Shown here: in pieces, positions 1-7,958 of the stretch
Layout: the number at the start of each line of letters is the position of its first letter
Position numbering within the stretch: the stretch's first letter is position 1
Assembly: GCA_012729335.1 (NCBI GenBank)
Contig: JAAYDJ010000025.1
Span: 60,422-124,421, forward strand
DNA length: 64,000 bases
Direction: 5' to 3'
From: Bacteroidales bacterium
GTDB lineage: Bacteria; Bacteroidota; Bacteroidia; Bacteroidales; Prolixibacteraceae
Program-made: the position numbers and the translations under genes
Notes under the pieces: model-generated
The model's database searches: none
Told to the model about the DNA's origin: nothing
What the model saw: only the letters and a program-made list of their open reading frames with translations

Positions 1-60
1 CTGATCGAAAGAATAAAACAAGATACAGAATATAAAAAACTCTTTGAAGATGACAGCTAA
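1..60 (+). CDS. 3' end of an upstream gene (partial), possibly an ECF sigma factor
   Basis: Frame 1 is open from the window edge to a TAA at 58-60 and encodes the last 19 residues of a protein, LIERIKQDTEYKKLFEDDS. The stop overlaps the start of the next gene (ATG at 50) by 11 bases, which implies translational coupling. A short basic-acidic tail ending in a 'DxEYKKLF' pattern is common at the C-terminus of Bacteroidota ECF sigma factors, and the following gene looks like an anti-sigma protein. The sigma-factor call is inference from context and 19 residues only. Confidence 0.5.
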   Translation: MIERIKQDTEYKKLFEDDS

Positions 61-1564
61 AATTTCTTCGGCAGCCTCCGTGGCCCGCATTTCCGGCACG
101 ATGACCCACACCCCTGGGTTGGCCCGGCAAAACCAGTTTGACACTGACACACACAATGATCAAGATCTATGGGATGACATAGAAAGCGCCCTGACCGAGA
201 AAGATATTCAGGTTTTACGGGCGAAACTGAAAGAGATTTCCCACATGCCCTTCGAGGCTGCCCCCGATGGCCTTTCCGGCGAGTTTTTATTTGACCTGAC
301 CCATGGTGTGGCCACTCCCGGTGAGTGGCAGGAATTTGACGGATTGCTCCCCGATTTTTCCGAAGTCACCCAGGCGCTCCCCAAAATCCACCTTCATCAC
401 CATAAAAGGTGCATGAACGAGACCATTCACCACTATTACCTGGAGCAGGCCGCGCCCATCTCACGGGAGCAGGACCCCTTTTCCGCGGAGGTGGAAGATC
501 CCGAATGGCAGATGCTGGAAGAGGCCATGACCGAAGGTGACGTCATGGATTTACGCCAAAAACTGCAGCTGATCGCCAAAACGGCCTCCACCCATCCCTA
601 TGGCGTGTCCGATATGGAAGATTACCTCAATGGGGAGATGGACCCGGGTGACCGGGAACGCTTCGAGGAAGAGCTGGCTTTTAATCCCCAGCTGAGTGAC
701 GATCTGGATCTTAACCTTGAGCTGGAGGAAGCCATTGGTGAGCAGGATGTCATGGCCTTACGTGAGGCTCTGGGAGGCGTCATGCGGCACCAGAAAGGCC
801 GGGCCAGGAGCATCGCCGACATTGACTCCTTTCTTGAGGGAAGCATGACCGGCGACGACAGGGAAGCCTTCATGGAAGAGATGGCCGGAAACCGGGAGCT
901 GAGGAGGGAAATACGCTTGTCAGGCGAAATGGAGAAGGCCCTGGGCGAACAGGATGTCATCGCCCTGCGTGACAAACTCAGGGAGGTCGCTGACTCGGAG
1001 GAAAAGGTGGTCGGCCGGGGATTGGTGACCCCACCCAAGGTGAGCGGCGTGAAACAACTGGCCACGGTAGCTGCGGTGGCCTTGCTGGTGATGGGTTTCT
1101 TCTCATTGCAAACGGTGACCAACCTGACCAACCGCAATGTTTATGAGGCCTTTTACAAAGCACCCCCGGCTCCTTCCAACTTCCGTGATGTGGCGGCAAC
1201 CCCCGCCGACGGGCTTACACAGGGATTTCTCCTTTTTAATCACGGACAATATGCTTCCGCCCTTTTACTTCTGCGGGAAGAAGCCAACCGCGAACCCTTT
1301 AACCCGGCAGCGGTCTTTTACACCGGGGCCAGTCACCAGGGTCTTAAAGAGTATTCACAGGCCGTAGCCCAGTATGACCGGATCCTTCTTCACCGCGACA
1401 ATCTTTTCGTGGAACAGGCCGAATGGTACGCAGCCCTGAGTCTGGTGGGAAGTCATCAGTTCCCGGAAGCCACCGGCCGGCTCAATGCGGTGGTTAACCG
1501 GAGGGGGTATTATGCGCGCGACGCCGAAAAACTGCTCTCCCGGATAAGAAAGGGAACCCAATAA
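50..1564 (+). CDS. anti-sigma-like membrane protein with repeated modules and C-terminal TPRs
   Basis: A 504-residue protein starting at ATG 50; a TTG two codons earlier is also in frame. The N-terminal ~330 residues alternate two modules. Module A (near residues 41-65, 154-178, 224-248, 292-314) has the pattern EEAxxExDVxxLRxKLxxIA. Module B (near 188-222 and 256-291, with a weaker copy near 73-108) has the pattern DxEDYLxGxMxxxDRExFEEELAxNxxL, resembling the zinc-less anti-sigma N-termini common in Bacteroidota. One membrane helix follows (about 334-353, LATVAAVALLVMGFF). The C-terminal ~115 residues carry two or three TPR-like helical pairs and would be periplasmic. The gene overlaps an upstream gene by 11 bases. 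I infer a membrane regulator linking a periplasmic TPR sensor to a cytoplasmic sigma factor; the role is not proven. Confidence 0.75.
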   Translation: MTAKISSAASVARISGTMTHTPGLARQNQFDTDTHNDQDLWDDIESALTEKDIQVLRAKLKEISHMPFEAAPDGLSGEFLFDLTHGVATPGEWQEFDGLLPDFSEVTQALPKIHLHHHKRCMNETIHHYYLEQAAPISREQDPFSAEVEDPEWQMLEEAMTEGDVMDLRQKLQLIAKTASTHPYGVSDMEDYLNGEMDPGDRERFEEELAFNPQLSDDLDLNLELEEAIGEQDVMALREALGGVMRHQKGRARSIADIDSFLEGSMTGDDREAFMEEMAGNRELRREIRLSGEMEKALGEQDVIALRDKLREVADSEEKVVGRGLVTPPKVSGVKQLATVAAVALLVMGFFSLQTVTNLTNRNVYEAFYKAPPAPSNFRDVAATPADGLTQGFLLFNHGQYASALLLLREEANREPFNPAAVFYTGASHQGLKEYSQAVAQYDRILLHRDNLFVEQAEWYAALSLVGSHQFPEATGRLNAVVNRRGYYARDAEKLLSRIRKGTQ

Positions 1565-1587
1565 CAGCTAAACATATCTGACCCTTG

Positions 1588-4491
1588 TCAGTGGTCACCG
1601 GCCGGATTCTTTCCGGCCGGTTTCTTTATGACCATATCGGCTGCAATCAGGACCAGCAGCAACCCCATCAACCCCAGGAGGTAGAGGCTGATCCCCCCGA
1701 ACAGGGGATCTGTTTGCCCGATGAGCACATATCCCATCCAGAAACGGGGATGGGCTGTGACCGGTGTTGCTTCGCGGAGGTATTTGAGTTTGGCGTTGCG
1801 CAGGGCATGATCCTTGCTTTTTCCCGCCTTCAGGTTGCGGTAGAACTCCTTCATCACCGTGGCACCTGCCTGGTCCTCGACTTCCCACAGGGAGAGGAGT
1901 ACCGACTGGCACCCCGCATAGAAGAAACCCCTGGCCAGGCTGATGATACCCTCTCCGTTGCGGAGCATCCCGCCGCCGCTGCGGCAGGCTCCCAATACGG
2001 CCATACGGGCTTTGAGCCGAAGGGTATAAACATCGGCCGTATTCAGCCATCCGTCATCTTCCAGTGAGCCCCCGGCCCCGGGAGCAAAGGCCAGCCGCGA
2101 AAACAGGGGAAGCGAATCGTTGATGAGGGTATGCATGGCCAGGTGGAGGATATCGAATCTTCCGGCAACCTCCCGGAACCTGCCTTCGGTGGCCTCCTCC
2201 CCGGCATACAGGGTCGTATTCAGCTTTCTTTTCATGACCTTCACCTCTTCCAGGGCCCCCGGAATGGGCGGTAATGCCGCTGTGGATCCGGAAAGACCAC
2301 TACTCCCTGCATACACCGGCGCAAAAGCCACGGAATGGTTGCCCCAGCCCTTCTTATCCCTGGCAAAAAGCGTCGCCGAGTAGTTGTAACTCACCGCATG
2401 ACGCCTGATCAGGTATGCGAGATCATGATAATGCACCGATTCCGTCACAGCCGGTTCACTCAGCAAGGCTTCAAAAGGCAGGTAATTCAGAATCCCGTCG
2501 GGGATGACCGTGATCCTTTTGTCGAAAACCAAATCGCCAAAGGGAAGGATCAACAGGTTGTACAGGCTGTATGCCGCTTCACAGTATGCCCGGAAACTCT
2601 CCACCCCTGCATTCAGGAAGGCCTGGTCTGAAAGAATCCCAAAGACCGTGAGCACCATTTCCTGATTTTCGCGGGTGAAAGGCTGCCTGATAAAACGGTG
2701 CCCCCGCGCCGTAAGGGCGATGGTATACAACTCTCCGTCGCTCTGCGCTCCGGGCAGCTTCAGGTTATAGGAGAGCAACACCTCATCCTTTTTCATCCGC
2801 TTCCTGGCCAAATCAAAGGAGAGCGGTTTCTGCCTGTATTTGATGCCGTAATAATCGGGATAACTCTTCTCTAACTGCTCCCTGAAACGGAGATTTAACT
2901 CTTCGTATTCGAAGACCTTCTGCCGGTATTCATCCAGTTTTTGAGGATCGGGTTCTTCCTCCTGCATTTCCAGGTGGAGTTTTTCGCGATACCAGGCCAG
3001 GCTGGTGATGCCATCGTTTTCTTTTCTCAGGAGGCTGTCGGGGATGATTCCCTGTGCGCGGGACTCAAGTTCGGAGATCTGGTCCATGAGGGCCCCGGCT
3101 TTGTTTCTTTCGGCATGGCGGAAGGCTGTTTCAGCCCACTGGGGATCCTGGCTGAGCTGGTAAAGCTCAAATGAGGCCTCCACCACACCGTGGAAAATCT
3201 CCTGTTGGAGGGTGTACAGCTGTACTTTACTCTCCTCCGACACGAAACCGGTGCGGAGGTATTCGGCCAGGTCACTCCCCAGGCCCAGAAATTCCGCCGA
3301 TTTCTGTAAGTTCTCTGTTTTGGCTTCTTTCCTGACTGCGTCGGTGAATTTGGCCAGCTGCAGATGGTTGAGTCCGATATTCCGGAGGGTGGTCAGTGTG
3401 GCGATGGGATAGTTGTTGTCGCGCAACTGCGCCCTGTCGGTTTGTACAGGCCCCTCCCCTGAAAATGCCTTTTCCCGCTCTGGCACGCCGGTTCCCTTCT
3501 TCTTCACGGTCAGAATGGACAATGCCCTTTCATACCAATTTTGCGCCTCCATCAGGTTGCTATACCGCATCTTCCGGAATTCCTCCCATGAGGCCGAATT
3601 GATCTTCCTTTGGGCATGGGAATCGCCGATGATATTGTAAAGATCGGCCAGGTCGCCCTTCCGGTTCGGGAATTGACGATAGATAAGTTCGGCTTTATGG
3701 AGCCAGCGCAACGCCGTATCCTGCCTGCCTGCCAGATTCAGAAACTGCCCATAGTAGAGATACTGGTCGGCCACATCGGTCGATTCCTCCCCATGTTCCC
3801 CGGCTACCATGGCGATCAACCCGGTATAGAGATGGTCGGCTTCTTTAAGGTTCCCCAGGGTCGCCAGAATGTTGGCCTTCAGATTTAACCACCTGGCACG
3901 GTGGTCAAACGACCCCTTGCCGGAAAAACGGGCCACCAGCTGCAAGGCCTCCTGCTCCCGGTTGACCAGATAGTAACTGTCGGCCAGATTGTACACCGCC
4001 GACAAATAATTGACTTCCGGAAACGCGTCGGGTGAATGCTCATAGATGTATACCGCACGCTCCTGGTACCGGATGGCTTCCCCCAGATTCCCCTTGGCCC
4101 GGAAATAATTCCCCATGTTGGTATAAATATCCCCCAGTCGTGAATCATTGGCCGGGGCATGTAGGAGATATATCTCCTCGGCCATCTGGTAGTAACGGAA
4201 GGAATTGTCCAGCTGGCGGAGATTCTTGTATTGGATGGCCATGCCCATGTAATTGGCCGCCAGCCTGATGTGCTTCTCCCCAAAGGCCAGCTTGCGGAAT
4301 TCCAGACTCTGCCTGAACAACTCCAGGGCCTTCTCCGGTTCCCCCTCCCGTCCCCATTCCACACCCTTCCGGTACAACTCCAACCCCTGTAAACTGTCAC
4401 TCTTCTCTTCTGGCTGATCCCCTGACATTTGCAGGGTAAACCCTAAAAAGAGGCTACATAACCATAATTTATGTCTAAAGCTAATTATCAT
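1588..4491 (-). CDS. secreted, membrane-anchored TPR-CHAT caspase-like protease
   Basis: A 967-residue protein from ATG 4491; in-frame extension to a TTG at 4542 is less likely. The N-terminus is a plausible signal peptide (MIISFRHKLWLCSLFLGF). Residues ~35-450 are tandem TPRs, including a run typical of TPR-CHAT proteins (IRYQERAVYIYEHS). The last third is a CHAT domain with the catalytic His in LHLAMHT (near 785) and the catalytic Cys in LGACRSGGG (near 834). A C-terminal hydrophobic helix (about 930-950, LYLLGLMGLLLVLIAAD) is followed by a lysine-rich tail. Both catalytic residues are present, so activity is expected. The topology places TPRs and protease outside the cytoplasm. Neighbours are an anti-sigma-like TPR protein and a double-glycine peptide divergently transcribed 135 bases away. 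Domain assignment is firm; substrate and role are unknown. Confidence 0.9.
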   Translation of the reverse strand: MIISFRHKLWLCSLFLGFTLQMSGDQPEEKSDSLQGLELYRKGVEWGREGEPEKALELFRQSLEFRKLAFGEKHIRLAANYMGMAIQYKNLRQLDNSFRYYQMAEEIYLLHAPANDSRLGDIYTNMGNYFRAKGNLGEAIRYQERAVYIYEHSPDAFPEVNYLSAVYNLADSYYLVNREQEALQLVARFSGKGSFDHRARWLNLKANILATLGNLKEADHLYTGLIAMVAGEHGEESTDVADQYLYYGQFLNLAGRQDTALRWLHKAELIYRQFPNRKGDLADLYNIIGDSHAQRKINSASWEEFRKMRYSNLMEAQNWYERALSILTVKKKGTGVPEREKAFSGEGPVQTDRAQLRDNNYPIATLTTLRNIGLNHLQLAKFTDAVRKEAKTENLQKSAEFLGLGSDLAEYLRTGFVSEESKVQLYTLQQEIFHGVVEASFELYQLSQDPQWAETAFRHAERNKAGALMDQISELESRAQGIIPDSLLRKENDGITSLAWYREKLHLEMQEEEPDPQKLDEYRQKVFEYEELNLRFREQLEKSYPDYYGIKYRQKPLSFDLARKRMKKDEVLLSYNLKLPGAQSDGELYTIALTARGHRFIRQPFTRENQEMVLTVFGILSDQAFLNAGVESFRAYCEAAYSLYNLLILPFGDLVFDKRITVIPDGILNYLPFEALLSEPAVTESVHYHDLAYLIRRHAVSYNYSATLFARDKKGWGNHSVAFAPVYAGSSGLSGSTAALPPIPGALEEVKVMKRKLNTTLYAGEEATEGRFREVAGRFDILHLAMHTLINDSLPLFSRLAFAPGAGGSLEDDGWLNTADVYTLRLKARMAVLGACRSGGGMLRNGEGIISLARGFFYAGCQSVLLSLWEVEDQAGATVMKEFYRNLKAGKSKDHALRNAKLKYLREATPVTAHPRFWMGYVLIGQTDPLFGGISLYLLGLMGLLLVLIAADMVIKKPAGKNPAGDH
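1597..1629 (+). terminator. hairpin terminator after the anti-sigma-like gene
   Basis: A perfect 10-bp stem ACCGGCCGGA / TCCGGCCGGT (1597-1606 and 1612-1621) with a 5-base loop is followed by TTCTTTAT. It lies 33 bases after the TAA of the preceding plus-strand gene and inside the last codons of the convergent CHAT gene. Confidence 0.6.
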
Positions 4492-4514
4492 AAAATCAGA
4501 GGCTTGTAAAAAAG

Positions 4515-4542
4515 TTGCATTTTTTTTAAAAAAAATGTGCAA
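4515..4542. promoter_or_regulatory. AT-rich near-palindrome between the CHAT gene and the peptide gene
   Basis: TTGCA, eight T, eight A, then TGTGCAA form a near-perfect 28-base palindrome with one TG insertion in the right arm. It sits in the 135-base divergent intergenic region, 24 bases upstream of the CHAT start and 85 bases upstream of the peptide start. It could be a shared operator or a bidirectional hairpin; no factor is known. Confidence 0.4.
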
Positions 4543-4626
4543 TTCCCGGGTTACCTTTTGACCGGCTGCGGAATATTATAGAGAGTGAATATAAGTAAAA
4601 TAGCTGAACAATTTAAACCCATAGTC

Positions 4627-4785
4627 ATGAAAAGTTTCATCCGTAAGTCCGCTGTGAAAGAAGTTTCCTTTTATGCTCAAGCCGAAATCCTCACCGTCGA
4701 GGAGATGTACAAACTCAGGGGTGGTTTGGCCAGTGAAAAAATCAAAACCAAGGAAATCGACGTTTACGATACCCGCGAGGACTGA
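4627..4785 (+). CDS. double-glycine leader peptide (Bacteroidales GG-type precursor)
   Basis: A 52-residue peptide from ATG 4627; a GTG at 4585 would add 14 residues. It has a basic N-terminus and the motif ILTVEEMYKLRGG (residues 21-33), matching the LxxEEMxxxxGG leader of Bacteroidales GG-type natural product precursors cut by C39-type peptidases. The 19 residues after GG (LASEKIKTKEIDVYDTRED) are highly charged, with no Cys, Ser-rich or hydrophobic stretch, unlike a typical bacteriocin core. It is transcribed divergently from the CHAT protease gene and closed by a strong terminator, so it is a free-standing cistron. I infer a secreted signal or protease substrate; no exporter or modifying enzyme lies in the window. 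Confidence 0.7.
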   Translation: MKSFIRKSAVKEVSFYAQAEILTVEEMYKLRGGLASEKIKTKEIDVYDTRED

Positions 4786-4812
4786 TTCATGACTTATCAT
4801 CGCACATCGTTG

Positions 4813-4850
4813 AAGTAAGGAGGCGCACAACGGGGTTCCTTACTTTTTAT
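4813..4850 (+). terminator. terminator after the GG peptide gene
   Basis: A 9-bp stem AAGTAAGGA (4813-4821) / TCCTTACTT (4837-4845) is followed by TTTTATTTT. It ends the peptide transcript and overlaps the stop codon (4840-4842) of the convergent methyltransferase gene. Confidence 0.8.
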
Positions 4851-6006
4851 TTTGTGTATTGATGATCAGGGTTTTTCTTTTTCCCTCAAAAAGTTCAAAT
4901 TTCTGGAAGCTGCATTCGAGTGCACCGTTGTAGAGCCTGATTCTGGCCGCAGGCTTCAGTCCGATTTTCTGCATCATTTCCTGGGAGGAGGTCAGTATCC
5001 AGGCCACATTGCCCGGCAGCCGGTGTTTCAGACGCTCCCCAATCATTCCGTAAAGCAGCGATAAATCTTCCCTTTTCATTCTTTCTCCATAGGGTGGGTT
5101 GATGAGGATCAATCCGTTTTCCAGTACAAGGTCGCTTTTCCCGAAGTCTTCGTTCCGGAAGGAGATCATGTTGAACACCCTGGCGTTGCGGGCGTTGGTT
5201 TGTGCCGACAGGATATTCCTGGGCAGGAGGTCGCCGGCATAGATCCGGTGGGGGAACTCTGCAGGGGTGGTTTCCTCCTTTATTTTTTCAAAGAGTTCGG
5301 GTTCGTAATCTTTCCAGTTCATGAAGGAGAAGGATTTGCGGAATTTGCCGGGGGGGATGTTTCTGGCCATCAGGGCGGCTTCGATGGGGAGGGTACCTGA
5401 CCCGCACATGGGATCGTAGAAGTCGGCGTCTCCTTTCCAGCCGGTCAACAGGATCATGCCTGCAGCCAGCACTTCGTTGAGGGGGGCGTCGCCCTGTGAC
5501 TGGCGGTATCCGCGTTTATGCAGCGATTCCCCCGAGCTGTCGAGGCTGATCACGCAGCGCTGCCCCGAAATGTGGAGGTGAAAGATGATGTCGGGTTCCG
5601 AGGTGTCGACACTGGGCCTGAGCCCTGTTTTCTGCCGGAACCGGTCAGCGATGGCATCTTTCAGCTTCATTGACGCGAACATCGAGTTCTTGAAGAGTTC
5701 CGATTGAATGACCGTGCTTTGCACCACAAAGGTGTGGTTCAGATTCATCAGGAGTTCCCATTTGACCTTCAGGCATTTGATGTAAAAATCATCCATACTG
5801 GTGAAGGTAAAGGCGGTGATCTGCCTGAAGATTCTGATGGCTGTCCGCAGCCTGTAATTGGCCCGGTACATCATGGCTTTGTCCCCTTCAAAATGGACCG
5901 CCCTCAGGGCGGGAGTCACCTGTTCTCCTCCCAGGGCCCTGATCTCTTCTGCCAGTACTCCCTCCAGTCCTTCGAGGGTCTTGGCCGTGTAAAAGTAGTT
6001 TTCCAA
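4840..6006 (-). CDS. THUMP-domain class I SAM-dependent 23S rRNA guanine-N2 methyltransferase (RlmL N-terminal-half type)
   Basis: Residues 1-~165 are a ferredoxin-like/THUMP RNA-binding region and the rest is a class I methyltransferase. Seen: 'DPMCGSGTLPIEAA' (SAM-binding motif I) and 'INPPYGERM' (the N-P-P-Y catalytic motif IV). Family COG0116 methylates 23S rRNA and is usually ~380 residues. The open frame runs upstream to 6333 but the extra residues are low-quality shadow sequence of the antisense gene; no in-frame ATG lies near the domain start, so I chose TTG at 6006, giving 388 residues starting LENYFYTAKTLEGLEG. It lies 100 bases downstream of epsC on the same strand. Function is firm; the start is not. 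Confidence 0.88.
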   Translation of the reverse strand: MENYFYTAKTLEGLEGVLAEEIRALGGEQVTPALRAVHFEGDKAMMYRANYRLRTAIRIFRQITAFTFTSMDDFYIKCLKVKWELLMNLNHTFVVQSTVIQSELFKNSMFASMKLKDAIADRFRQKTGLRPSVDTSEPDIIFHLHISGQRCVISLDSSGESLHKRGYRQSQGDAPLNEVLAAGMILLTGWKGDADFYDPMCGSGTLPIEAALMARNIPPGKFRKSFSFMNWKDYEPELFEKIKEETTPAEFPHRIYAGDLLPRNILSAQTNARNARVFNMISFRNEDFGKSDLVLENGLILINPPYGERMKREDLSLLYGMIGERLKHRLPGNVAWILTSSQEMMQKIGLKPAARIRLYNGALECSFQKFELFEGKRKTLIINTQNKK

Positions 6007-6106
6007 AACAGTTCTGATTATCGGATGAATGGTATGTCTTGATGATGATCCCCGCTGATGTGATCCTGCCCCGGAACCTGCTTGCTGAAACCGCAGGTCT
6101 GCGGAT

Positions 6107-7030
6107 TCAGATGCCCTCCCCGTTGGTGAAGGCGTTGTCGCGGGCTTTTTTCTGGACCACCCTGGAACCCGGGGGGAGATCGTGGGTGACCCAGACATTC
6201 CCGCCCACCACCGAATGGTGGCCGATGGTGATCCTGCCCAGGATGGTCGCTCCCGCATAGATGACCACATGGTCTTCCACGATGGGGTGACGGGGTATTC
6301 CTTTGACCGGGTTCCCCTGGTCGTCCACTTCAAAGCTTTTGGCCCCCAGGGTCACCCCCTGGTAGATCTTGACATGGTGGCCTATGATACATGTGGAGCC
6401 AATGACCACCCCTGTGCCGTGATCGATGGCAAAATATTCACCGATGGTCGCCCCGGGGTGAATGTCAATGCCGGTTTCACTGTGGGCCATTTCGGTGATG
6501 TAGCGGGGCATCAGGGGAACTCCCAGCTCTTCAAGCCTGTGGGCCATCCTGTAATTGGCGACCGCCCTGATGGAAGGGTAACAGAAAATGACCTCTCCGA
6601 AGCTTTTGGCGGCAGGATCGCCCAGGTACATGGCCTCCACATCGGTGACCATTTTCCGGCGGATTTCGGGGAGCGAAAGGATGAACTCCGCAGCCGCCTG
6701 CCGGGCATACAGCGCGTGGCGCTCCACCTTGTTTTCCCTCTCATCGCGGCACTCGTAGCACATGCCGGCCAGGATTTCTCCTGCCAGCAGTTCCTCCAGC
6801 TCATCGATATACACTCCCATGTAATGGCCGATCGTTTCAGGCCGCAGGGAAGTACTGCCGAAGTAGCCCGGAAAAATGATTTCCCGGGTCAGTTCAATGA
6901 TCCGGGTCAGCTTTGGTATGGACGGCAGGGGTTCCCCCTGGCGGTGTTCGTGACATACCAGCCGGTAGGAGCGGGGATCGGCGAGCTGACTGATGATCTC
7001 TCCAAAGGGGGGATGGGAGTCCTTATCCAT
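6107..7030 (-). CDS. epsC: serine O-acetyltransferase, EpsC type
   Basis: It makes O-acetylserine from serine and acetyl-CoA, the substrate of the cysteine synthase encoded just upstream. The 307-residue protein has a long helical N-terminal domain and a C-terminal left-handed beta-helix of hexapeptide repeats. Characteristic residues are seen in 'GIDIHPGATIGEYFAIDHG' and 'GIPRHPIVEDHVVIYAGA', including the catalytic DHG and the His-Pro of the active site. Start ATG 7030 overlaps the cysK stop (7023) by 8 bases; an ATG at 7045 would overlap by 23. Coupled translation with cysK is likely. Confidence 0.93.
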   Translation of the reverse strand: MDKDSHPPFGEIISQLADPRSYRLVCHEHRQGEPLPSIPKLTRIIELTREIIFPGYFGSTSLRPETIGHYMGVYIDELEELLAGEILAGMCYECRDERENKVERHALYARQAAAEFILSLPEIRRKMVTDVEAMYLGDPAAKSFGEVIFCYPSIRAVANYRMAHRLEELGVPLMPRYITEMAHSETGIDIHPGATIGEYFAIDHGTGVVIGSTCIIGHHVKIYQGVTLGAKSFEVDDQGNPVKGIPRHPIVEDHVVIYAGATILGRITIGHHSVVGGNVWVTHDLPPGSRVVQKKARDNAFTNGEGI

Positions 7031-7958
7031 TGTTTTCCAGTTCAAAGAGATTGGTGCTTAGATATCTTTCCCCGGTGTCGCAGACGATGAACACGATGGT
7101 TTTTCCCTTATTGGCGGGGCGTGCGGCCATTTCGAGGGCGGCGTGGCAATTGGCACCCGAGGAGATTCCCGCCAGAATGCCTTCCCTGGCGGCCAGCTCC
7201 CGGGCCCTCGTCAGGGCGTCGCCGTCTTTGACCCTGATGATTTCGTCATACACGGAGGTGTTGAGTACCGCGGGGATAAACCCGGGGCCGATGCCCTGGA
7301 TTTTGTGTTTTCCCGGGCTGCCCCCAGAAAGAACAGGAGATCCTTCTGGTTCCACGACCACACTGGTGACTCCTGGTTTTTTCTGTTTCAGGATTTCCGA
7401 CACCCCAGTAATGGTGCCGCCTGTTCCCGAGCCGGCTACGAAGATGTCCACCCTTCCCTCCGTGTCGTTCCAGATCTCCAGGGCGGTAGTCTGGCGGTGC
7501 ATTTCGGCATTGGCGGGGTTGCTGAACTGCATCGGCATGAAAGCTCCGGGTGTGCGGGCGGCGATCTCCCCTGCAACCCGGATCGATTCATTCATGCCCC
7601 CGGCGGCCGGTGTGAGCATCACCTCCGCGCCATAGGCCCTGAGCACGCCCCGCCGTTCCATGGAGGCGCTCTCAGGCATCACGATGATCAGCCGGTAGCC
7701 CCTGACGGCGCATACCATGGCCAACCCGATCCCTGTGTTGCCGCTGGTGGGCTCCACCACCACACTCCCTGCTCCCAGGCGCCCCTCCCGCTCCGCAGCC
7801 GTCACCATGGCCAGCGCCAGGCGGTCCTTCACCGACCCTCCCGGATTAAAAGATTCCAGTTTGGCCAGCAGGGTCACTTCCCACTCCGCGGAAAGCCGGT
7901 TCAGTTTTACCAGTGGGGTGCGGCCTACCAAACAGGTGATGTCGTTATATATCTTCAT
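7023..7958 (-). CDS. cysK: cysteine synthase (O-acetylserine sulfhydrylase)
   Basis: A 311-residue PLP enzyme that makes cysteine from O-acetylserine and sulfide. The PLP lysine is in 'NPGGSVKDRLA', the substrate loop is 'TSGNTGIG', and the phosphate-binding glycine loop is 'GSGTGGTITG'. The start is ATG 7958 (MKIYNDITCLVGRTPLV), preceded by GGAAAAA; the frame extends upstream to 7997 but without family similarity. It leads a cysK-epsC pair with overlapping ends, so the two cysteine biosynthesis steps are produced together. Confidence 0.95.
   Translation of the reverse strand: MKIYNDITCLVGRTPLVKLNRLSAEWEVTLLAKLESFNPGGSVKDRLALAMVTAAEREGRLGAGSVVVEPTSGNTGIGLAMVCAVRGYRLIIVMPESASMERRGVLRAYGAEVMLTPAAGGMNESIRVAGEIAARTPGAFMPMQFSNPANAEMHRQTTALEIWNDTEGRVDIFVAGSGTGGTITGVSEILKQKKPGVTSVVVEPEGSPVLSGGSPGKHKIQGIGPGFIPAVLNTSVYDEIIRVKDGDALTRARELAAREGILAGISSGANCHAALEMAARPANKGKTIVFIVCDTGERYLSTNLFELENNG

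Follow-up and report, generated by a model that had tools for sequence, protein, structure and literature searches.

A conserved ECF sigma/anti-sigma/TPR-CHAT protease/double-glycine peptide module of Bacteroidales and its candidate role in peptide-triggered signalling

Introduction

ECF sigma factors released by proteases, TPR-CHAT proteases with sigma inhibitors as substrates and an anti-sigma factor that bears a CHAT domain are each known already. As described in PMC10028731, the Csx29 protease of the type III-E CRISPR system (Craspase) sits on the RNA-guided Cas7-11 complex with the target RNA as its switch, and cuts the anti-sigma-like protein Csx30, the inhibitor of an ECF sigma factor whose motif is found in its own locus; the same text outlines the DegS/RseA/RseP/sigma E pathway, in which a one-pass anti-sigma factor undergoes stepwise proteolysis with the first cut outside the membrane. 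In the type III CRISPR system CalpL/CalpT/CalpS, a signal-activated protease likewise cleaves an anti-sigma factor in complex with an ECF sigma factor; CalpL is a Lon-type protease activated by cA4 and not a CHAT protease, and the portions of PMC11417357 that deal with it mention no peptide gene. In the DdvA/DdvS pair of Myxococcus xanthus, DdvA is the transmembrane anti-sigma factor for an ECF sigma factor, and its signal is called unknown in the portions of PMC4374960 that treat the pair.

Here we describe a locus from a Bacteroidales genome in which an ECF sigma factor and a transmembrane anti-sigma-like protein adjoin a TPR-CHAT protease and a double-glycine (GG) peptide. We read it as a conserved ECF sigma/anti-sigma/TPR-CHAT/GG-peptide module that would work as a peptide-triggered, self-amplifying signalling circuit, and we give this reading a probability of roughly 0.55. 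No description of such a module was found in the literature, where subscription journals were thinly covered and absence is therefore weak evidence, and the accessible portions of a paper on Bacteroidales RiPPs (PMC10352776) contain neither a CHAT domain nor a sigma factor.

Materials and Methods

The window is the whole stretch of DNA analysed, 64,000 nucleotides corresponding to bases 60422-124421 of contig C17 in a genome of 3.66 Mb; a further stretch, L004, reaches 10 kb to the left, with window base 1 at L004 position 10001. Each species is represented by one genome in the genome sets, and contig ends cut many loci short. Nine duplicate contigs (L066-L069, L073, L075, L080, L087, and L089) were dropped before loci were counted, and L033, an anti-sigma fragment, was left out of the 60-locus and stem-arginine counts. 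Loci in which the anti-sigma ORF is at least 380 aa long are called long-type. Within the host family (G000-G036, n = 37), presence of the anti-sigma protein was defined as a match with E under 1e-39. GG peptides were recognised by the pattern hydrophobic-x4-hydrophobic-xx-hydrophobic-x-GG, and partial Mantel tests were used to compare pairwise distances between peptide cores with the distances of five protein domains.

Results

The features of the locus are collected in Table 1. A first-pass annotation of the window had suspected that the gene tail at the left edge belongs to a sigma factor and had suggested reading the DNA beyond it. This gene does encode an ECF sigma factor of 195 aa, starting 527 bases left of the window edge and matching TIGR02937 with an E-value of 2.7e-14 (53.1 bits, above the cut-off of 42.9) and Pfam Sigma70_r2 just under the cut-off (23.4 bits against 24); given the TIGR02937 match, the tail of a gene unrelated to sigma factors was rejected. 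The sigma and anti-sigma genes overlap by 11 bases, the CHAT gene is convergent with them, and the peptide gene is divergent from the CHAT gene. Two more CHAT genes are found in the same genome, one adjoining caspase-domain (C14) genes (L005) and the other in a different setting (L006).

Table 1. Positions of the module's features in the window.
Feature	Position	Strand	Remarks
ECF sigma factor, 3' end	1..60	+	rest left of the window, L004:9473-10060
Transmembrane anti-sigma-like protein with TPR, 504 aa	50..1564	+	ATG at 50
Anti-sigma membrane helix	1052..1129	+	residues 335-360 in the model
Stem Arg379 codon, candidate cleavage site (inferred)	1184..1186	+	from Arg conservation
Anti-sigma TPR domain, predicted outside	1211..1558	+	residues 388-503
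TPR-CHAT protease, 967 aa	1588..4491	-	ATG at 4491; open frame reaches 4542
CHAT C-terminal membrane helix, then basic tail	1627..1692	-	from hydrophobicity and model
Catalytic Cys836 codon	1984..1986	-	invariant in 32/32
Catalytic His787 codon	2131..2133	-	invariant in 32/32
Promoter-like motif GGGTTACCTTTT-N11-GAAT, before the peptide	4548..4574	+	second site before sigma, L004:9432-9458
Double-glycine leader peptide, 52 aa	4627..4785	+	leader 33, core 19; GG at residues 32-33

The second gene had been annotated as an anti-sigma-like membrane protein with TPRs, a description in keeping with its overlap with the sigma gene, its one strong membrane segment, seen singly in all 60 anti-sigma proteins (60/60), and a confident TPR model. 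The protein carries anti-sigma-like repeats of type ALTEKDIQVLRAKLKEI; its model (mean pLDDT 65) is poor except for the TPR domain, which is confident, and some of the repeats, and a poorly ordered stem is modelled between the membrane helix and the TPR domain. The top matches of a fold search with this model were all TPR proteins. The match of the window's protein to zf-HC2 is weak and under the cut-off (E 0.01), and zf-HC2 was found at E up to 0.01 in five of 29 homologues (best 4.5e-5), while NF052375 scored 19.2 bits against a cut-off of 100. A likeness to CATASP, also under the cut-off (E 0.005), was seen in only one of 29 homologues and was dropped.

The CHAT protein matches Pfam CHAT (PF12770) with an E-value of 7e-56 (190 bits, cut-off 24) and its structure is modelled with a pLDDT of 82. 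His787 and Cys836, which we take from the CHAT family pattern to be the catalytic pair, are invariant across all 32 aligned homologues, and the pair is thus intact, as had been noted from the window's sequence. The same homologues share a C-terminal membrane helix followed by a basic tail (32/32), and 27 of the 32 have a strongly hydrophobic N-terminus at a threshold of 1.6, the window's own protein (1.21) being among the five below it; this conserved topology agrees with the earlier proposal that the enzyme faces outside. A fold search with the CHAT model placed Csx29 among its neighbours and DdvA at rank 4. In separase, an Asp in the LWxVxD loop binds the P1 Arg; the profile match of the CHAT protein to this loop was not significant (E 1.5). 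An anti-phage module was considered and rejected: of the four module proteins, PADLOC matched only CHAT, with a single weak TPR match, and its matches to three of six neighbouring proteins (two helicases and one methyltransferase) look generic. In these scans, none of the ten proteins was named as Cas7-11.

A protein search yielded 28 anti-sigma homologues besides the window's own, and a search of a genome collection with the homologue alignment yielded 27 named loci. Their titles nearly all read Prolixibacteraceae, Bacteroidales or Bacteroidetes; the exceptions are three MAGs, titled Chlorobiota, Bacteroides, and Chitinophaga, respectively. Anti-sigma matches occur in 40 of 61 related genomes, the window's own included, and an anti-sigma ORF of at least 200 aa is present in 60 of the 61 non-redundant loci. 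Among the 35 long-type loci, sigma is present in 29 and CHAT in 26, and among the 25 short-type loci the counts are 19 and 18, respectively; where at least 4.5 kb is available on both sides, CHAT is found in 19/20 long-type and 14/17 short-type loci, and sigma in 17/20 and 17/17. The gene order varies (sigma and anti-sigma with convergent CHAT; sigma, CHAT, anti-sigma; CHAT beyond sigma) and the set stays together. In Mangrovibacterium marinum, a single locus (L011) holds all four genes, the peptide included. The trio of sigma, anti-sigma and CHAT is found repeatedly as a set across Bacteroidales, and the expectation that homologues would be found side by side in other genomes is borne out by this set in many genomes and by the peptide in 23/23 long-type loci. 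Within the host family, CHAT is present in 27 of the 28 genomes with the anti-sigma protein and in two of the nine without it (Fisher p 2.6e-5, not corrected for kinship). The anti-sigma match of G003 is interrupted by an internal stop and is possibly a paralogue, and that of G005 is a fragment at a contig end.

The GG peptide, likewise picked out by the first-pass annotation, is no isolated reading frame. All 23 long-type loci with the CHAT start in the contig carry a peptide of 34-56 aa adjoining that start, with GGT[N]ACCTTT at most 160 bases upstream in every case, and a chance ORF was rejected because of this conservation beside CHAT. Elsewhere in the 61 loci (965 kb), the pattern was met at eight free places, one of them an extra copy of a true peptide, and once inside a CHAT gene. 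The cores are 10-27 residues long, are net negative in 21 of 23 and have clade-specific endings, e.g., IDVYDTRED, DSYADLD, VEDLE, and KDIFDFEAE. Some cores lack an Arg cleavage motif, and such a motif was therefore rejected as a general feature of the peptide. Two to four peptide copies are present in L012, L026, L070, L071, and L072, and the peptide and anti-sigma pair is doubled in tandem in L013, L018, and L078. A recognisable GG peptide was found in only five of the 17 short-type loci with a CHAT start (L026, L093, L094, L103, and L195), and the others may therefore use another input, a point against the reading preferred here; L008, L065, L083, and L090, where the CHAT start lies beyond the contig, are left out of both the 23 and the 17.

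Sigma and peptide genes are preceded by one promoter-like motif of the form GGGT(T/A)ACCTTTT-N11-GAAT. With up to one mismatch, it occurs in the genome of the window only before sigma and before the peptide, and two mismatches add five more sites versus two for a reversed control. Summed from the per-genome table, up to one mismatch gives 176 sites in the 61 genomes versus 16 for the reversed pattern, with sites present in 35/61 genomes and up to 26 in one relative. Every host-family genome with anti-sigma or CHAT has at least one site (30/30), and G024 is the only one of the seven genomes lacking both in which the motif occurs (2 sites). Five loci with another gene order (L011, L014, L017, L018, and L078) lack the motif before sigma and read motif, peptide, anti-sigma on the same strand; the motif precedes the peptide even there, and the peptide is therefore the constant target. 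For sites away from the module, 40 stretches were read, a sample outside which lie 24 off-locus sites of G008 and others. In four of these stretches the motif leads a GG peptide (L147, L169, L171, and L179), and L147, L169, and L179 adjoin CHAT genes of G023, G015, and G008, respectively, in which the anti-sigma gene is on other contigs. About ten further sites precede proteins with signal- or lipoprotein-like N-termini as judged by eye, and the remaining stretches show no clear product.

C39 exporters are encoded in 44 of the 61 genomes; among host-family genomes with the anti-sigma protein the count is 27/28, with only G003 (85% complete) lacking one. The genome of the window has a single C39 exporter with Pfam C39 and ABC domains, located by eye near ribosomal genes; it is unlinked to the module and adjoins a short ORF (222 aa) without a Pfam match, which counts against the reading preferred here. 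The exporter gene lies at most 8 kb from the anti-sigma gene in six of 60 loci (L024, L025, L026, L100, L194, and L195). The most telling is L195, where one stretch holds the motif, a GG peptide, the exporter with its partner ORF, and then CHAT, anti-sigma and sigma. One gene for an M50 site-2 protease is present in the genome of the window, and the family is also found in all 14 control genomes. The shared promoter motif and the exporter link go beyond what the first-pass annotation had seen.

Discussion

The genes and their association, the catalytic pair, the membrane segments and the motif common to the sigma and peptide genes are read directly from the sequence, and they suggest a circuit of the following kind. 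The sigma factor would read the shared motif and drive both its own operon (sigma and anti-sigma) and the peptide gene. The peptide leader would be cut at the GG site, and the core exported by a C39 exporter; beyond the inner membrane, it would bind the CHAT protein at its TPR superhelix. The protease would then cleave the stem of the anti-sigma protein, probably C-terminal to the conserved Arg, and an intramembrane protease together with cytosolic proteases would finish the anti-sigma protein and set the sigma factor free. The freed sigma factor would give more peptide, and the loop would be reset as the operon supplies fresh anti-sigma protein.

The least certain step of this proposal is the sign of the feedback. 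The peptide could instead be a brake, a pseudo-substrate or inhibitor that shuts the CHAT protease off and exerts negative feedback on sigma, with another envelope input as the activating signal. Both the sigma-type motif before the peptide and the covariation with the CHAT TPR described below are equally expected of a brake, and several short-type loci have CHAT and no recognisable peptide, meaning that activation can do without it. However, the anti-sigma protein already provides negative feedback, as part of the sigma operon and, in the five loci with another gene order, downstream of the motif-driven peptide, and a signal accounts at least equally well for loci with several peptide copies (L026, L071). 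Since a brake thus already sits in the same regulon, we prefer activation by the peptide and consider inhibition unlikely.

The cleavage-release model was put forward in the first-pass annotation with either the peptide or the anti-sigma protein as the substrate. Release of sigma by cleavage is retained in the proposed circuit, and on the choice that had been left open the comparison of homologues favours the anti-sigma stem as the probable substrate and the peptide as a putative ligand of the CHAT TPR. The stem Arg is kept in 29/29 close anti-sigma homologues and in 54/60 wider ones. It is present in 43 of the 44 anti-sigma proteins with CHAT in the locus (the exception is L098) and, counting against our explanation, also in 11 of the 16 without, at least some of which belong to genomes with CHAT elsewhere; L100 and L194, with an exporter and no CHAT nearby, have no Arg at the stem column. 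Because it is near-invariant where CHAT is in the locus, the stem Arg is the best candidate for the cut site, which is not proof of cleavage there.

Evidence for the ligand comes from covariation. Over 23 loci, the core follows the CHAT TPR when the other four domains are controlled (r 0.47, p 0.0005), the Mantel tests being only a partial guard against shared ancestry, and the signal lies mostly at CHAT residues 70-270. The middle part of CHAT (-0.13), its peptidase domain (-0.21) and the cytosolic part of the anti-sigma protein (0.06) do not follow the core under control; without control, the CHAT middle part and the anti-sigma cytosolic part and TPR also correlate (r 0.22 to 0.29). The CHAT TPR result survived dereplication to 17 loci (r 0.39, p 0.0025) as well as the removal of each clade (r 0.28 to 0.63). 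With sigma distance as the control in 20 loci, L013, L015, and L084 being left out of this test for want of a sigma gene and back in the 23-locus test, the CHAT TPR is the only one of the five domains that the core follows (r 0.32, p 0.003), whereas the leader follows the other four but not the CHAT TPR (0.13, p 0.17).

The same comparisons bear on the possibility that the CHAT protein does not cut the anti-sigma protein at all, and rather processes the peptide or other envelope proteins, the product being sensed by the anti-sigma TPR. Without control, the core does correlate with the anti-sigma TPR (r 0.29, p 0.0035), and removal of the two GG..LQ loci brings this domain to p 0.008, which counts against our explanation; moreover, many cores of the window's clade contain Arg or Lys. 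However, the anti-sigma TPR signal disappears under domain control (r 0.13, p 0.14), a basic residue at a fixed core position is not general (e.g., L070 and L071), and the stem Arg is near-invariant with CHAT in the locus and missing in L100 and L194 without it. We regard this possibility as more doubtful still than the brake.

A GG leader and a C39 exporter are characteristic of bacteriocins, which are usually cationic. That the peptide is a bacteriocin or other effector whose production is switched on by the sigma module under stress is improbable and the weakest of the alternatives, for although it would suit the GG leader and exporter, the passing of the TIGR01847 (bacteriocin_sig) cut-off by three of nine GG peptides scanned (eight of them from the module; the window's own peptide gave no match) and the secreted-looking proteins that follow some off-module motif sites, the cores are short and mostly negative, unlike cationic bacteriocins, and covariation with the CHAT TPR is not expected of an effector.

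If peptide-triggered signalling is indeed the function of the module, Bacteroidales would possess a dedicated peptide-signalling pathway, and an outward-facing CHAT protease would gain both a substrate and an input. The regulon is readily testable because the motif is sharp: at up to one mismatch, the genome of the window has two sites and one relative as many as 26. Set against what was known, the new elements are one motif before both sigma and peptide and the covariation of the cores with the CHAT TPR.

Among the known systems, DegS/RseA/RseP/sigma E resembles the module in that a one-pass anti-sigma protein and an M50 site-2 protease gene are also found here. DegS, however, is a serine protease that senses envelope stress, and the sigma E system is not known to have a CHAT protease or a peptide gene. 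TPR receptors of peptide pheromones, NprR and Rap, are cytoplasmic proteins of Gram-positive bacteria with no known CHAT or anti-sigma partners. DdvA matches the CHAT profile with an E-value of 0.0029, and its chain (991 aa) is titled CHAT domain-containing protein in PDB entries 8rot and 8rw5; DdvA thus combines anti-sigma and CHAT in one chain, whereas here they are two proteins plus a peptide. If the proposed circuit holds, it would also hint at how DdvA might be switched.

The type III-E relay of Csx29, Csx30 and CASP-sigma shares with the present module the TPR-CHAT fold of its protease, as far as the structure model indicates. The CHAT protein here differs in its C-terminal membrane anchor (32/32) and its N-terminus, hydrophobic in most homologues, in a partner that passes the membrane once and in the attached peptide gene, whereas Csx29 presumably has no membrane anchor. 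The module may thus follow the logic of the Csx29 relay turned outward, with a peptide in place of the target RNA, and would then offer, outside immunity, a possible relative of the protease-sigma relay of CRISPR. In its fullest form, to which we give somewhat less than even odds, the proposal is a pheromone circuit of Bacteroidales, in which an exported GG peptide is read by the CHAT TPR, the anti-sigma protein is cut at the stem Arg and the freed sigma factor gives more peptide, as a cousin of the Csx29-Csx30-sigma relay; if this is true, such CRISPR relays were perhaps recruited from cell-surface signalling.

Motif sites and transcription of the module

The promoter-like motif GGGT(T/A)ACCTTTT-N11-GAAT, counted at up to one mismatch, occurs at 26 sites in G008 and 14 in G023, both related genomes, compared to 2 in the own genome, where it precedes the sigma and peptide genes. 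Since these numbers far exceed those of the own genome, the regulon seems to have expanded in both relatives, and products at their sites include GG peptides as well as secreted-looking proteins. Upstream of sigma, only ~14 bases separate the motif end from the start codon, likewise in several relatives; judged from this spacing, the sigma mRNA may be leaderless.

Neighboring genes and variant loci

A conserved gene left of sigma keeps its position in many loci, with similar ORFs in L007, L009, L010, L012, L064, L065, L078, L082, and L086. Its protein end resembles TonB C-termini by eye, and no Pfam match was obtained at 1e-3. The genes right of the module look ordinary.

In three loci, the peptide and anti-sigma genes appear as tandem pairs. 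Within each locus both peptides are identical and the anti-sigma ORFs score equally, reflecting either a real duplication or an assembly effect.

A further TPR-CHAT gene of the own genome sits between two Peptidase C14 (caspase-domain) genes, one encoding 274 aa and the other 1209 aa; the three genes share one strand.

After the sole C39 exporter of the own genome, the candidate exporter of the GG peptide, comes an ORF of 222 aa for which the Pfam comparison gave no match. The partner ORF at this place is longer in relatives (440 aa in locus L201), and the 222-aa ORF may be a shortened version of it. In loci L100 and L194, a C39 exporter directly follows sigma and anti-sigma; CHAT is absent nearby and the anti-sigma lacks the conserved stem Arg, an arrangement that is perhaps a version using another protease.

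Coordinates of the features (window base 1 is L004 10001)
Feature	Location	Basis
Motif and gap before sigma start codon	L004:9432-9475	
Conserved gene left of sigma	L004:8352-9134	
Ordinary-looking genes	window 4840-7045	
RlmL-like THUMP methyltransferase	window 4840-7045 region	Pfam
Serine acetyltransferase-like gene	window 4840-7045 region	by eye
G008 and G023 motif-site stretches	L142-L155, L178-L181	
Apparent tandem pairs	L013:9670-13805	
Apparent tandem pairs	L018:9707-14088	
Apparent tandem pairs	L078:8937-13826	
Further TPR-CHAT gene with flanking C14 genes	L005:6732-15269 (G000:C31)	
C39 exporter and 222-aa ORF	L190:6208-9068 (G000:C38)
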